In this document: positions 9,606-33,422 of the stretch, piece by piece
Layout: every line of letters starts with the position of its first letter
How positions within the stretch are numbered: the first letter of the stretch is position 1
NCBI RefSeq assembly: GCF_001684965.1
Contig: NZ_MAYG01000023.1
Span: forward strand, 310,001-374,000
From: Chryseobacterium arthrosphaerae
Lineage (GTDB): Bacteria; Bacteroidota; Bacteroidia; Flavobacteriales; Weeksellaceae
Reading direction: 5' to 3'
DNA length: 64,000 nucleotides
Notes under the pieces: generated by a model
What the model was told of the DNA's origin: nothing
Databases searched by the model: none
What the model saw: only the letters and a program-made list of their open reading frames with translations
Position numbers and translations under genes: made by a program

Positions 9606-10100
9606 ATGAAAAAAATTATTGCAGGCGCATTTGCGCTTTCACTATGTGTTGTTTCATGTAAAAAAGAAACAAAAACAGAAACCTCTGTAAGTACAGATAC
9701 TTTGGCTACCGTAATGCCTAAAGATTCTGTGATCACAAAAAATGATTCTGTAGCATCACCTCCTCCTTCTGCTTCAAGGTCAACAGATATTATTACTAAA
9801 AGTGTAGGAAAATATCCTCATGATATCAAATTATTTGAAGATAAAGCTATCTCAGAAAGACTGAAAAAACTTACAGGAGCACAGTATGATGAAATGGTGA
9901 AAAATTTCAATGTAGAAGGTCCTATCACCTCAGAAAATGGAATTTATAAACTGACAGGATGTAAGCAGCATGACTGCCCCGGATTTGCTACAAGCATTTA
10001 TTATGATGCTAAAAATGACAAACTGAGTGTTTCCATTGATAAAAATGGTAAAGTGACAAACTTTGATGAAAGCGGAAAATTACGTTTTAAGAATGATTGA
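9606..10100 (+). CDS. Small lipoprotein of unknown function
   Basis: 164 aa. Lipobox SLCVVSC at residue 18 marks a lipoprotein; a Ser/Thr/Lys-rich linker follows to about residue 60. The folded C-terminal part holds LTGCKQHDCPGFATSIYYD, with two cysteines close together that could form a disulfide, and an acidic KLSVSIDKNGKVTNFD tail. I do not recognise a named family. The cysteine segment is somewhat like that of lysozyme-inhibitor (Ivy-type) proteins, but this is only a loose resemblance. Confidence 0.7.
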   Translation: MKKIIAGAFALSLCVVSCKKETKTETSVSTDTLATVMPKDSVITKNDSVASPPPSASRSTDIITKSVGKYPHDIKLFEDKAISERLKKLTGAQYDEMVKNFNVEGPITSENGIYKLTGCKQHDCPGFATSIYYDAKNDKLSVSIDKNGKVTNFDESGKLRFKND

Positions 10101-10303: not shown

Positions 10304-11135
10304 ATTGTATCGTGAGTAAAACCCACGCTTCTTCAACTTTGCTTTCCAGAAGTAATTTCTGTGCGTCAAGATGAATGTTTTCATCAGCATGAAAGTCACC
10401 GGCAGGTAAAACTTCCGTATTGGCAAGCATTCCCAGATCGTTTCCGGTGAATACTTTACTGTATTTGATAGCATCAGGCAGAAGATCAAAGCCAATTCCT
10501 TTAGTAACCAGGGGTTTTGGAACTTCAAAAAGACTGTTCTCATTGCTCCTGGAATACCAGTTTCCTCCTAAGCGGGCTACCATATCCAGTTTTTTCTGAT
10601 CCAGATTTCCTGCTTCATTCAGGTATTCTTCTCTGATATGGATTTTCTGGACTTCACAGATCACGAGGTTTCCGGCACCACCCTGATCACCCAATGATTT
10701 TATCTCTAAAACCTTACATTCAAAGTTGACAGGGCATTCTTCAATCAGTTTAGGCTGTACAAGATCTGCATCTTTCATCGTAAGGCCGGATTTGATAAAC
10801 TCATTGACTCCGGTCTCATATTCTGTGGAAGCTAATGAAATCTGCTGTACAATCGGGAAATTCACTGTTCCAATTACCACTTCAGCTACTTCATGAACAT
10901 TTTCCAGCGTATGTTTGGTGGTATTATCACGTACTCTCCTCGATGGGGAAAAAATCAAGATCGGAGGAACCGTACTGAACATATTAAAAAAACTGAACGG
11001 AGATAAGTTATTATTACCATCTTTATCTACAGTAGAAGCAAGTGCAATAGGACGTGGTGAAACGGCGGTCTGCATGATGGTCTGTAGTTGTACGGAGGTT
11101 ATTTCAGAGGGGATTACTGTTTTCATATTTTTCAT
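10302..11135 (-). CDS. Flavin reductase family protein (flavoredoxin-like)
   Basis: 277 aa FMN-binding split-barrel protein. AVSPRPIALASTVDKDGNNN and LSPFSFFNMFSTVPPILIFS (motifs SPRPIALAST and SPFSFFN) are typical of the flavin-reductase-like domain (residues 20-190). The extra C-terminal 80 aa is normal for the larger Bacteroidota form. ATG at 11135; a second ATG three codons in (MKTVIP) is possible. It lies in the tyrosine-degradation region and is often next to fahA/hmgA genes in flavobacteria, so a link to aromatic catabolism is possible but unproven. Confidence 0.85.
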   Translation of the reverse strand: MKNMKTVIPSEITSVQLQTIMQTAVSPRPIALASTVDKDGNNNLSPFSFFNMFSTVPPILIFSPSRRVRDNTTKHTLENVHEVAEVVIGTVNFPIVQQISLASTEYETGVNEFIKSGLTMKDADLVQPKLIEECPVNFECKVLEIKSLGDQGGAGNLVICEVQKIHIREEYLNEAGNLDQKKLDMVARLGGNWYSRSNENSLFEVPKPLVTKGIGFDLLPDAIKYSKVFTGNDLGMLANTEVLPAGDFHADENIHLDAQKLLLESKVEEAWVLLTIQ

Positions 11136-11214
11136 TTTAACACTTAAGTTGCTTAAGTTATTTCTGATTGCGTCTTATTGAAGTGCACTTAAGTTTGAAA
11201 ATCTACGATTTTCA
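11135..11214 (-). repeat. REP-like 80-bp repeat, copy A
   Basis: On the minus strand this starts with the palindrome TGAAAATC-GTA-GATTTTCA (11196-11214), continues AAACTTAAGTGCACTT and ends ACTTAAGTGTTAAAA. It is the inverted partner of copy B (11637-11716) and matches copy C (33319-33401). It overlaps the 3' end of the GxxExxY gene and the leader of the flavin reductase gene. Confidence 0.85.
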
Positions 11215-11624
11215 TTCTCTTGAAAGTCCTTTAAAGATCGGAGATACAAAGATTCACAGCCTTCATGATAAAGGTTGGTAACATTGAAGTTGACTAAAAT
11301 TGAACGAGGTACTTTTAATAAATTCATATAGTTTATAGTTTGTGCTTTATGAATCTGATGAATTTCAGCAACTGATTTTAATTCCAAAACAATTAATTCT
11401 TCAATTAAAAAGTCACATTTTACCTTACAATCTATACGTTTCTCTTTATAAAAAAAAGGAATTTCAAGTTCACTCTGGTATTTTAAACCTAACAGATTAA
11501 ATTCTCTTTCTAAACATTGATGATAAACTTCTTAATATAAACCTGGACCTGCCAGTTTATGAACTTCAATACAAGCCCCAATAATTTTATAAGAAAGATC
11601 ATTGACTGATTTTTGAGTTATCAT
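11175..11624 (-). pseudogene. GxxExxY family (PD-(D/E)XK-like) gene with in-frame stop
   Basis: Translated from ATG 11624 this gives a whole GxxExxY protein of about 149 aa except for one TAA at 11532-11534 (codon 31), where the family has the Glu of GPGLLE: sequence reads GPGLY-stop-EVYHQCL. The rest is intact: IIGACIEVHKLAGPG, CDFLIEELIVLELKSV (Asp, Glu-x-Lys as in PD-(D/E)XK nucleases), HKAQTINYMNLLK and ILVNFNV. The last residues NENRRFSNLSALQ are encoded by repeat copy A. Copies A and B bracket the gene in inverted order. Readthrough or restart at a downstream codon is possible but would lose the name motif. Confidence 0.85.
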
Positions 11625-11636
11625 AATGCATTAAAA

Positions 11637-11716
11637 TGAAAATCGTAGATTTTCAAACACTAAAGTGAACTTAATTTTCCATAATCATTTAGCTTAAAAA
11701 ACTAAAGTGTTTAAAA
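11637..11716 (+). repeat. REP-like 80-bp repeat, copy B
   Basis: Begins TGAAAATCGTAGATTTTCA (perfect 8-bp arms around GTA), then AACACTAAAGTGAACTTAA, and ends AACTAAAGTGTTTAAAA. It lies 13 nt upstream of the GxxExxY start codon, in opposite orientation to copy A, and abuts the fahA stop region (11724). Confidence 0.85.
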
Positions 11717-11723
11717 ATAATTA

Positions 11724-12971
11724 TTAAAGTGTTGGAATAATTTTACCCGAAACTTCACCGAAACCTACTCTCACACCATCTTTCTCAGCCCATGCTTTCA
11801 TGGTAACGGTATCGTTGTCTTCAATGAATTTTCTTTCTTCGCCGTTGCTTAATGACAGAGGATTCTGACCTCTCCATGTCAGCTCAAGCATAGAACCGAA
11901 AGATTTTGGATCGTTTCCGGAAATAGTACCGCTGGCATATAGGTCACCCACTTCTATGTTACATCCGTTTATAGTGTGGTGAGCCAGTTGCTGGTTCATA
12001 TTCCAGTACATGTATTTGTAGTTGCTTTCGCAGATCAGGTTCTGATCACCGTTTTCAGGCTGGATATATACTTCAAGGTTGATGTCGTAATTTTTATCAC
12101 CTTCAAATTTTAAATAATCCAGCACTTCAGGATCCTGTACCGGAGAAGCTGTTCTGAATGGTTCCAGTGCTTCAAGGGTAACTACCCATGGAGAAATGGA
12201 TGAACCGAAGTTTTTCGCAAGGAATGGTCCAAGCGGAACGTATTCCCAGGATTGGATATCTCTTGCAGACCAGTCATTGAATACCACCATTCCAAAGATC
12301 GCATCTTCAGCGTCTTTCGTAGAAATACTTTCTCCCATCTCCGTATTTTTGTTGACGATGAAAGCCATTTCCAGTTCAAAATCCAGCTGCTTGCAAGGTC
12401 CGAAAACAGGTTTATCTGCATCTGCAGGCTTCATTTGTCCTTTGGGACGGTTGATCTCTGTACCTGAAACTACAATAGAAGAGGCTCTACCGTGGTAACC
12501 TACCGGTAAATGTTTCCAGTTGGGTAATAATGCGTTGGCAGGGTCACGGAACATTTTTCCTACGTTGGTAGCATGTTCTATGCTGCTGTAAAAGTCTGTA
12601 TAATTCGGAATGTGAACAGGCATCATCATTTTTACTTTGTCAAGATCATAAAACGCTTCTTCAATGGTTTTCTGATCTTTTGACAGGGTAGAACCTTCTT
12701 GTAACAATGCCTGGATTCTTGTACGAACGGCGTTGGTAACAGGTTTACCCAGCTCAATAAATTCGTTGATGGTATACGCTTCAAAAACATTGTCGTCTAA
12801 TCCTTCAATGTCTTCGAAATATCCGAGATCATACAAAGTGGCAAGATCAATGACCTGATCTCCGATCCTTGTACAGCATCCGATGTATTCTTTATTAAAA
12901 ACTGCGACTCCGAAAGGAATATTATGTATAGAAAAATCCGAATCTGAGGAATAGTCTACAAATGATTTCAT
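11724..12971 (-). CDS. fahA: Fumarylacetoacetase
   Basis: 415 aa, the usual FAH length. Catalyses the last step of tyrosine catabolism, fumarylacetoacetate to fumarate and acetoacetate. The N-terminal FAH domain runs to about residue 120 (IPFGVAVFN); the catalytic domain shows YTDFYSSIEHATNVGKMFR, LPVGYHGRASSIVVSGTEI (split: PVGYHGRASS), DFELEMAFIV metal ligands and NDWSARDIQSWEYVPLGPF. All landmarks present. Same strand as hppD and hmgA but separated from them, so the pathway is a regional cluster, not one tight operon. Confidence 0.96.
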   Translation of the reverse strand: MKSFVDYSSDSDFSIHNIPFGVAVFNKEYIGCCTRIGDQVIDLATLYDLGYFEDIEGLDDNVFEAYTINEFIELGKPVTNAVRTRIQALLQEGSTLSKDQKTIEEAFYDLDKVKMMMPVHIPNYTDFYSSIEHATNVGKMFRDPANALLPNWKHLPVGYHGRASSIVVSGTEINRPKGQMKPADADKPVFGPCKQLDFELEMAFIVNKNTEMGESISTKDAEDAIFGMVVFNDWSARDIQSWEYVPLGPFLAKNFGSSISPWVVTLEALEPFRTASPVQDPEVLDYLKFEGDKNYDINLEVYIQPENGDQNLICESNYKYMYWNMNQQLAHHTINGCNIEVGDLYASGTISGNDPKSFGSMLELTWRGQNPLSLSNGEERKFIEDNDTVTMKAWAEKDGVRVGFGEVSGKIIPTL

Positions 12972-22864: not shown

Positions 22865-23033
22865 AAACGCAAAGGCGCAAGTTTTTTCTTTGGTGATATT
22901 TTTAAGTCGTAAGGATTTTATCTGTGATAAAATTGTATAATTCTAATATATATGCATCAATTCTTGCTGAAAATTTTTGATTTTCTTGCGCCTTAAAACA
23001 GCATCATATTTATTTCTTTGCGCCTTTGCGTTT
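22865..23033 (+). repeat. Dispersed repeat with terminal inverted repeats, copy 1
   Basis: 169 bp bounded by AAACGCAAAGGCGCAAG (22865-22881) and its near complement CTTTGCGCCTTTGCGTTT (23016-23033). Inside are AAGGATTTTAT, GATAAAATT, the palindromic TGAAAATTTTTGATTTTC (22968-22985) and TTGCGCCTTAAA. Copy 2 at 25118-25289 shares these blocks in order and orientation. It fills most of the 316-bp gap between convergent genes; the remainder (23034-23160) has no recognisable feature. Confidence 0.8.
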
Positions 23034-23160
23034 ACCCAACTGTAAAAGGTCATCTTTTTATATCCCACAGATCATACAGAACACACAGATTTTTTATTGG
23101 TTGAATTTTTAAAATTTGTGAGAACTATCCCAATCTTTAAATTTTAAATAATTAAATCTT

Positions 23161-25117: not shown

Positions 25118-25289
25118 GAAAATGTAAAGAAGCAAGAATTTTCCTTTAAATATACCTTAAAGTGCAAGGATTTTATTTTTGATAAAATTTAATTCTGTTG
25201 AATTTTAACTGAAAACAAACCTGCTGAAAATCTTTGATTTTTTTGCGCCTTAAAGTTTTATGTTATTAAATTTCTTTGCGCCTTTGCGA
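25118..25289 (+). repeat. Dispersed repeat, copy 2
   Basis: Same block order as copy 1 (22865-23033): GGAAAATGTAAAGAAGCAAG (degenerate left end), GCAAGGATTTTATTTTTGA, GCTGAAAATCTTTGATTTTT (25224-25242), TTTGCGCCTTAAAG, and right end CTTTGCGCCTTTGCG (25274-25288). It lies between convergent genes (HxlR, proX). Together the two copies flank the cupin-dehydrogenase-HxlR block as direct repeats. Confidence 0.75.
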
Positions 25290-25392
25290 TTACTGATAAT
25301 ATTGCTTCATAGAGAAAAGATCAAATTCTATCTCGATGAAGAAATCCTCAGACCCGTGTGGAGCTGAGGATTTTTAATAATACCAAATTATA

Positions 25393-33248: not shown

Positions 33249-33422
33249 CGCCCCCGTCAAATCTTTGATTTACCACTCCTCCGAGAGAGGGATTTGCAGC
33301 CGTTTGATCAGAAACTCATGAAAATCGTAGATCTTCAAAAACTTAAGTGCTCTTCTCAATAGTCTCTGCATAATCACTTGTATTTACTTAAGTGTTTAAA
33401 AGCTTTTGTGCCTTTGTGGTTA
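33249..33422 (+). repeat. REP-like repeats: AAATC-TTT-GATTT palindrome, 80-bp copy C and a TTTGTGCC tail
   Basis: CAAATCTTTGATTTA (33257-33271) with GC-rich flanks CCGCCCCCGTC and CTCCTCCGAGAGAGGGA; then copy C of the 80-bp repeat (33319-33401: TGAAAATCGTAGATCTTCAA, CTTAAGTG, ends TAAGTGTTTAAAA); then CTTTTGTGCCTTTGTGGTT (33403-33421) resembling the right end of the 22.9/25.2-kb repeats. Three repeat relatives in 170 bp, in the gap between AKR and PfpI genes; copy C has no GxxExxY gene next to it. Confidence 0.75.

Follow-up and report, generated by a model that had tools for sequence, protein, structure and literature searches.

GxxExxY genes framed by their own dispersed inverted repeats: candidate enzymes of a REPtron-like system

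The GxxExxY locus and its repeat element

We analyzed a stretch of 64,000 nucleotides from Chryseobacterium arthrosphaerae (contig NZ_MAYG01000023.1, positions 310,001 to 374,000), called the window below, which carries a damaged gene of the GxxExxY family between two inward-facing copies of a repeat resembling repetitive extragenic palindromes (REPs). In very different bacteria, genes of this family are often framed by inverted copies of a dispersed repeat of their own, which suggests a role of the enzyme in spreading or maintaining them. The locus comprises the following features, numbered from the first letter of the window:

11175..11624, minus strand: GxxExxY gene (PF13366/TIGR04256), interrupted within the family motif by an in-frame stop at 11532-11534 (translation, profile search)
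11136..11214, minus strand: half-element A, whose outer end AACACTTAAG... adjoins the start of the neighboring gene and whose core palindrome faces the GxxExxY gene
11196..11214, no strand: core palindrome of A (reading of the sequence)
11637..11717, plus strand: half-element B, whose core palindrome faces the GxxExxY gene and whose outer end is ...CTAAAGTGTTTAAA
11637..11655, no strand: core palindrome of B (reading of the sequence)

An earlier, sequence-only reading of the window had described A (minus) and B (plus) as inverted copies of an 80-bp element facing each other around the gene, and reading, translation and BLAST bear out this arrangement. Both core palindromes read TGAAAATC-NNN-GATTTTCA, and the two copies are 76% alike across about 80 bp (BLAST E 2.7e-7); thus, their likeness is not due to chance. 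The gene itself belongs to the GxxExxY family (TIGR04256/PF13366), with 39.1 bits for the frame fragment (cut-off 35) and 116.9 bits for the whole locus (cut-off 22). Translation confirmed that a single stop codon at 11532-11534 breaks it, and its 3' end also deviates from the relatives, which hold intact versions. The last 13 codons had been placed inside copy A, which is correct for the damaged frame of the window, but an intact relative (L126) has a gene that extends only up to the palindrome. To score a bracket, we compared the upstream flank of each gene with the reverse complement of its downstream flank. The window gene reached an inverted-repeat score of only 13.5 by this gene-end measure, because its damaged frame extends into copy A, and of 29.5 when the outer 150 bp of the insert were compared.

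The surrounding genome (5.05 Mb, 35 contigs) was searched for the element by BLAST, and 40 of 80 candidates were scored. The three copies described before (A, B and a gene-less copy C) exist, but here we found the element at no fewer than 24 places, at least 21 besides these three. Likewise, the 80-bp unit is real but constitutes one half of a palindromic element of roughly 190 bp. Long and imperfectly palindromic, the fuller unit ends in AACCACAAAAG-N-CACAAAAG, and fuller forms end in AACCACAAAAGNCACAAAAG. At G000:C1:1965848-1966311 (L003-L005) three full 190-bp elements stand in tandem, the second and third being 95% and 81% like the first. The outer end CTTTTGTGCCTTTGTGGTT is kept in copy C and absent from A and B. 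Three lone half-elements lie elsewhere in the window:

33319..33421, plus strand: lone half-element C, which has the core and the complete outer end CTTTTGTGCCTTTGTGGTT but no gene
22968..23034, plus strand: lone half-element of another type, with core and CTTTGCGCCTTTGCG outer end
25225..25292, plus strand: lone half-element of another type, with core and CTTTGCGCCTTTGCG outer end

Copy C does lack a gene, although its span had been given as 33319-33401 and the half-element reaches 33421. Among three related cores proposed before, those at 22968 and 25225 proved to be the half-elements of another type, whereas no element was seen around 33257. Since the core palindrome at 22968-23034 and 25225-25292 carries a different outer end, the core seems common to several repeat types. 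No known RNA family reached its gathering score between positions 10000 and 35000 of the window. The neighbor starting at 11135 (minus strand) is presumably flavin-reductase-like, and the other one (11724-12971, minus strand) we take to be a fumarylacetoacetase, both names being assigned from the sequences.

Brackets and dispersed gene-less copies

A single search for GxxExxY returned at least 8000 homologues. The genome of the window holds three PF13366 genes, and at least one match was present in 139 of 148 genomes of the genus (maximum nine, fragments counted). Our genus set consisted of 93 loci (3 from the window's genome, the 30 best hidden Markov model matches and 60 more from the 12 genomes richest in matches), five fetched decayed loci being excluded. 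Outside a clade named SYKIIGAA, 53 of 66 genes had an inverted-repeat score of at least 14, and the repeat sequence differs by clade (ACCATTAAG..., CCCACAGATTTCACAGAT, CTCGCAGATTTTGCTGATTTCGCAGAT, ACCACAAAAGTCACAAAAG and others). The expectation that related genes are flanked by the repeat held at all 30 best matches to the window's site, the window included (a list that favors window-like sites), but it failed for the 27 genes of that one clade, to which we return below.

Beyond the genus, we scanned with a GxxExxY alignment and took the best 80 loci, which fall into about 16 phylum-level groups by record title and come mostly from metagenome-assembled genomes (MAGs); 74 of them had at least 150 bp on both sides of the gene and were usable. 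As controls served 174 mechanically called open reading frames (ORFs) from the same loci, at least 700 bp away, shorter than 1500 bp and with full flanks. Inward-facing inverted repeats with a score of at least 16 flanked 55 of the 74 GxxExxY genes vs. 7 of the 174 control ORFs, and at a score of at least 20 the counts were 42/74 vs. 2/174. Scores of 16 or more were spread over about 12 phylum-level groups; single loci of Methanothrix, Kapaibacterium, Neomarinimicrobiota and Melioribacter fell below this value. The usual bracket motif is periodic (ACCACAGAGACACAGAG and variants), and the cross-phylum repeats mostly follow one theme, ACCACAGAGACACAGAGACACAGAG, which runs inward on either side of the gene and has CAC/CGC and GAG/AAG variants. 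We regard it as practically certain that the association of GxxExxY genes with cognate repeats is real.

The repeats also occur dispersed and without the gene. The exact pattern CCACAAAAGNCACAAAAG was found in 137 of the 148 genus genomes, its backward-read control in none. For the other phyla we searched CACNGAGNCACNGAGNCACNGAG in 28 genomes, 24 picked for such a bracket and 4 whose gene had no bracket. Here, 17 of the 24 bracketed genomes contained 8-75 copies and all 4 unbracketed ones none, and the backward control gave 0 in most genomes, its maximum of 17 coming from the one that holds 75 copies. Among the 150 places listed for each set, neighbors less than 300 bp apart faced inward in 31 of 32 cases in the other phyla (overlapping tandem matches dropped); in the genus, 18 of 27 were inward, 0 outward and 9 on the same strand. 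Gene-less inward pairs span 65-264 bp, and in 16 of 17 solo units examined no open frame crosses from end to end. The clearest recent spread is seen in one genus genome (G112), which carries four near-identical units in different surroundings. Numerous repeat sites without any relation to the gene had been named as a finding that would speak against its role; such sites do occur, yet they are expected of a REP-like population.

Such dispersal might be the work of another enzyme acting in trans, chiefly a Y1 transposase of the type found with REPs (REP-associated tyrosine transposases, RAYTs) or with terminal inverted repeats (TIRs; TIR-associated tyrosine transposases, TIRYTs), with GxxExxY as a passenger or mere user of the repeats. 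According to passages of PMC3733652 and PMC6006769, TIRYTs are Y1 transposases sitting between TIRs, some types of which are dispersed in dimers, and Y1_Tnp genes were present in 12 of 17 repeat-bearing genomes tested as well as in the genome of the window. The spread in G112, where the tested gene group is missing, also fits this explanation. On the other side, no Y1_Tnp gene was seen in 5 of the 17 genomes, which carry 12-75 motif copies (MAGs may be incomplete). The motif lay within 600 bp of the match at 4 of 30 Y1_Tnp loci (7/30 anywhere in the locus) vs. 17 of 17 GxxExxY loci, a comparison for which 30 of 47 matches were fetched and in which positions are rough where contig ends cut the loci. 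The inverted repeats displayed by the Y1_Tnp loci differ by eye from the motif. On these genome and locus counts, ownership of the repeats by a RAYT or TIRYT was held less likely, and we rate such trans-mobilization as rather unlikely overall. Four Y1_Tnp genes (L298, L299, L315, L323) stand between long inverted repeats of other sequences and are apparently TIRYT-like.

The protein, its inheritance and repeat copy number

For a relative (P0001), structure prediction yielded a confident model (pLDDT 94.2), the nearest folds of which are of the Cas4 and lambda-exonuclease types, with a best Foldseek E-value of only 2.6e-3. The model bears out the assignment of GxxExxY to the PD-(D/E)XK-like nucleases and predicts a Cas4/RecB-type enzyme, although the VIA-align and Foldseek lists are compatible with other PD-(D/E)XK relatives too. 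By sequence, no relative with a solved structure was found at E up to 1. At E up to 1, 82 members together gave matches to 18 Pfam families, and neither PF01797 (the HUH-Y1 family) nor PF04754 (the Rpn domain) was one of them.

In the relatives, the site of the window occurs in several states. Gene-bearing states have ACTTAAG-, ACATAAG- or ACAAAAG-type ends, and both ends were of the same type in 48 of the 49 sites with an insert of at least 400 bp (70 sites fetched); these 49 sites were chosen from the best matches to the window and represent few evolutionary changes seen repeatedly, not independent events. At this site the protein sequence varies with the end type: 17 of 18 ACAAAAG sites hold genes 84-100% like the query and one a decayed gene (60%), and the genes of the other listed sites are 53-62% like it. 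In other relatives the site is occupied by a palindromic unit that has one core and no gene (G075, G081), by a decayed gene or by different sequence; palindromes of other kinds (GATGCTTCGAC..., AAACCTCATAGG...) fill many gene-less sites. In the units of G075 (L165) and G081 (L166), about 53 bp around the core are perfectly palindromic, and by eye the two units differ from each other by matched changes on both arms. Several gene-less genomes among L155-L175 carry palindromic repeats of the GATGCTTCGACTCCGCTCAGCATGACA and AAACCTCATAGGTTTT types where the gene is missing.

The median dN/dS (nonsynonymous to synonymous substitution ratio) over 155 pairs of 34 intact genes at the window's site was 0.073. 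This value indicates purifying selection and therefore a protein kept for its function, though often lost. Among gene pairs at least 70% identical outside clade SYKIIGAA, both flanks matched in 147 cases, one flank in 5 and none in 21; thus, the gene rarely moves. The 21 pairs without matching flanks include a relocated subclade with CTCGCAGAT repeats.

These data bear on a homing-like selfish nuclease, which would cut gene-less units occupying this site in other strains so that recombination copies the gene in, the dispersed units being decayed or protected targets. PD-(D/E)XK homing endonucleases are known, and gene-bearing, gene-less palindromic and decayed states do coexist at one syntenic site. 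However, strong purifying selection and mostly vertical inheritance, as observed here, are unusual for a homing gene, and homing explains neither the spread to unrelated sites nor the higher copy numbers found with the gene group (see below). We consider homing quite unlikely.

The locus might also be an ordinary pair of insertion sequence (IS) and miniature inverted-repeat transposable elements (MITEs), with the gene-bearing unit as a small transposon and the gene-less units as its MITEs. A single gene between TIRs and short, internally different units with the same ends are what such a pair would look like, but several observations oppose it. No target duplication was detected (n=91; mean shared word 3.74 vs. 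3.80 in shuffled pairs, 7 pairs sharing a word of at least 6). Protein identity within a genome was at most 0.70 among the full-length copies fetched from 13 genomes, which indicates no recent duplicates. With one query protein, 8 of 72,556 plasmid records, all typed non-mobilizable, and 0 of 50,697 phage records matched. On these three grounds a plain IS/MITE pair was held less likely, and we judge it highly improbable.

We then compared repeat copy number with gene presence. In the genus, the median number of ACAAAAG repeat copies was 14 (41 genomes), 9 (5) and 12 (41) in the classes with the matching gene group or its nearest relatives vs. 3 in the 61 genomes without; the E-value classes were picked after seeing the table and the genomes are related. 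The nine genomes without any PF13366 gene contained 3, 0, 0, 1, 0, 9, 0, 2 and 2 copies. Independent contrasts on a tree of the two neighboring genes gave r 0.395 (p 7.7e-4) for 69 of 70 loci, one being excluded for a short flank; this set had been fetched for site states, not at random, and gene presence was defined by E <= 1e-47, a different cut from that of the median comparison. In the 27 closest discordant pairs, the gene-bearing genome had more copies in 20 cases and the other genome in 4, with 3 ties. For a second repeat/protein pair, 49 gene-bearing genomes had on average 2.24 copies and 99 others 0.80 (p 2e-4, without tree correction).

Candidate mechanism and comparison with known systems

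We think it somewhat probable that GxxExxY proteins serve as resident enzymes in a second REPtron-like system, unrelated to RAYT, in which the nuclease is the agent of dispersal. More tentatively, and a little short of an even chance in our judgment, this PD-(D/E)XK family alone might disseminate dispersed inverted repeats of a class not named before by a non-HUH, non-DDE copying route, with enzyme and repeat co-evolving and the mother unit domesticated. The proposal of the sequence-only reading that the protein moves or processes the repeats as RAYTs do agrees with the bracket, the inward pairs, the clade-matched repeats, the copy-number link and the vertical gene; that the nuclease itself does the moving is our conjecture.

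Mechanistically, each protein clade would recognize its own short periodic repeat, with units of about 8-10 bp and about 19-45 bp in total. Two head-to-head copies would make a palindromic, hairpin-capable unit; the gene would sit within one such unit, mostly at a fixed chromosomal site and vertically inherited, and gene-less units of 65-264 bp would form the dispersed population. The Cas4/RecB-type nuclease may bind and cut or nick the folded inverted pair, and the resulting ends may be copied to new sites by host repair or template switching, without target duplication. This cut-and-copy chemistry is borrowed by analogy from the RecA-independent recombination promoted by RpnA, as outlined in the abstract of PMC5350276.

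Several observations weigh against a nuclease-driven spread. Some repeat-rich genomes lack the tested gene group (G017 with 50 copies, G138 with 41, G112 with 31, G047 with 30), which may reflect either recent gene loss or another owner, and G095 has 9 copies and no PF13366 gene at all. Although other PF13366 genes are present in G112, its best match to the tested group reached only E 1.5e-24; this case lowers our confidence in the nuclease as agent and raises that in another enzyme. Recent solo spread is suggested by near-identical copies, and the missing target duplication counts here as well. No exact match was found in 16 of the 49 gene-bearing genomes of the second pair, and 7 of the 24 bracketed genomes had no exact CACNGAGNCACNGAGNCACNGAG triple. 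Outside the genus, where loci come mostly from MAGs, 19 of 74 loci scored below 16, and direct repeats reached 16 in 12 of 74 loci (vs. 1/174 controls); several of these carry whole palindromic units beside the gene. At the window's site the nearest tree neighbors differ in state and other palindromes fill gene-less sites, which obscures the order of gain and loss. Finally, a PD-(D/E)XK nuclease is not known to carry out strand transfer by itself.

Clade SYKIIGAA (c3) stands apart too, since 0 of its 27 genes reached a score of 14 and it has no bracket. All 351 pairs within this clade (e.g., L015-L024, L029, L195, L205) have at least one flank in common, and at L029 the gene adjoins what we take to be a beta-mannosidase-like gene. 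The clade is perhaps a domesticated form working without repeats. Members that work without repeats at a common genomic site would also fit a regulatory or defense role, in which the inverted repeats would serve the protein as binding sites (operators or marks) and would spread through ordinary slippage and recombination. Rpn nucleases are reportedly anti-phage toxin-antitoxin systems (PMC10327210). They are likewise PD-(D/E)XK enzymes (abstract of PMC5350276). However, repeats that pair inward, recur in near-identical form at unrelated sites and match the protein clade require a copying process, and PADLOC returned only weak matches, to Cas4 models and PDC-M36A (best E 0.001). We therefore hold such a role to be unlikely.

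GxxExxY is a large family of unknown function to which cognate repeats give a testable job, and an intergenic repeat class of many phyla gains a candidate owner. In the literature collection searched, the GxxExxY name and accessions led only to passages on other subjects; searches by repeat words found nothing, and such repeats may be published under another name.

Among known systems, IS-derived MITEs resemble the GxxExxY units as short gene-less units with inverted ends, but for the latter no target duplication was found and the gene does not multiply. Cas4 has a conserved set of iron-sulfur cysteines, whereas the invariant and nearly invariant columns of our GxxExxY alignment (A3) contain one cysteine (C33) and thus no such set. 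GxxExxY proteins are also shorter than Cas4/RecB-type nucleases, and Cas4 is not known to have a repeat bracket. Rpn/YhgA-like proteins share the stand-alone PD-(D/E)XK nuclease; RpnA can promote RecA-independent recombination, for which priming and template switching were proposed, but they belong to another Pfam family (PF04754) and the abstract names no cognate repeat (PMC5350276). TIRYTs (TIRtrons) also place a gene between long TIRs, some types of which are dispersed in dimers (passages of PMC3733652, PMC6006769), but their enzyme is of the HUH-Y1 type and Y1_Tnp loci seldom have the motif nearby (4/30). The closest parallel is with RAYTs and their hairpin-forming REP doublets (REPINs), together called REPtrons. 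According to passages of PMC8049555, RAYTs are single-copy and vertically inherited, have not been seen on plasmids, and go along with more REPINs in those E. coli genomes that possess them; GxxExxY shares with them a gene with inverted repeats, dispersed inward pairs, vertical inheritance, near absence from plasmids and more repeats where the gene is present. The differences are an HUH-Y1 enzyme there and a predicted PD-(D/E)XK nuclease here, and periodic repeats without a common GTAG tag at the end (by eye). If our interpretation is true, GxxExxY would provide, beside RAYT/REPIN and with unrelated chemistry, a second way for short non-coding repeats to persist in bacterial genomes.
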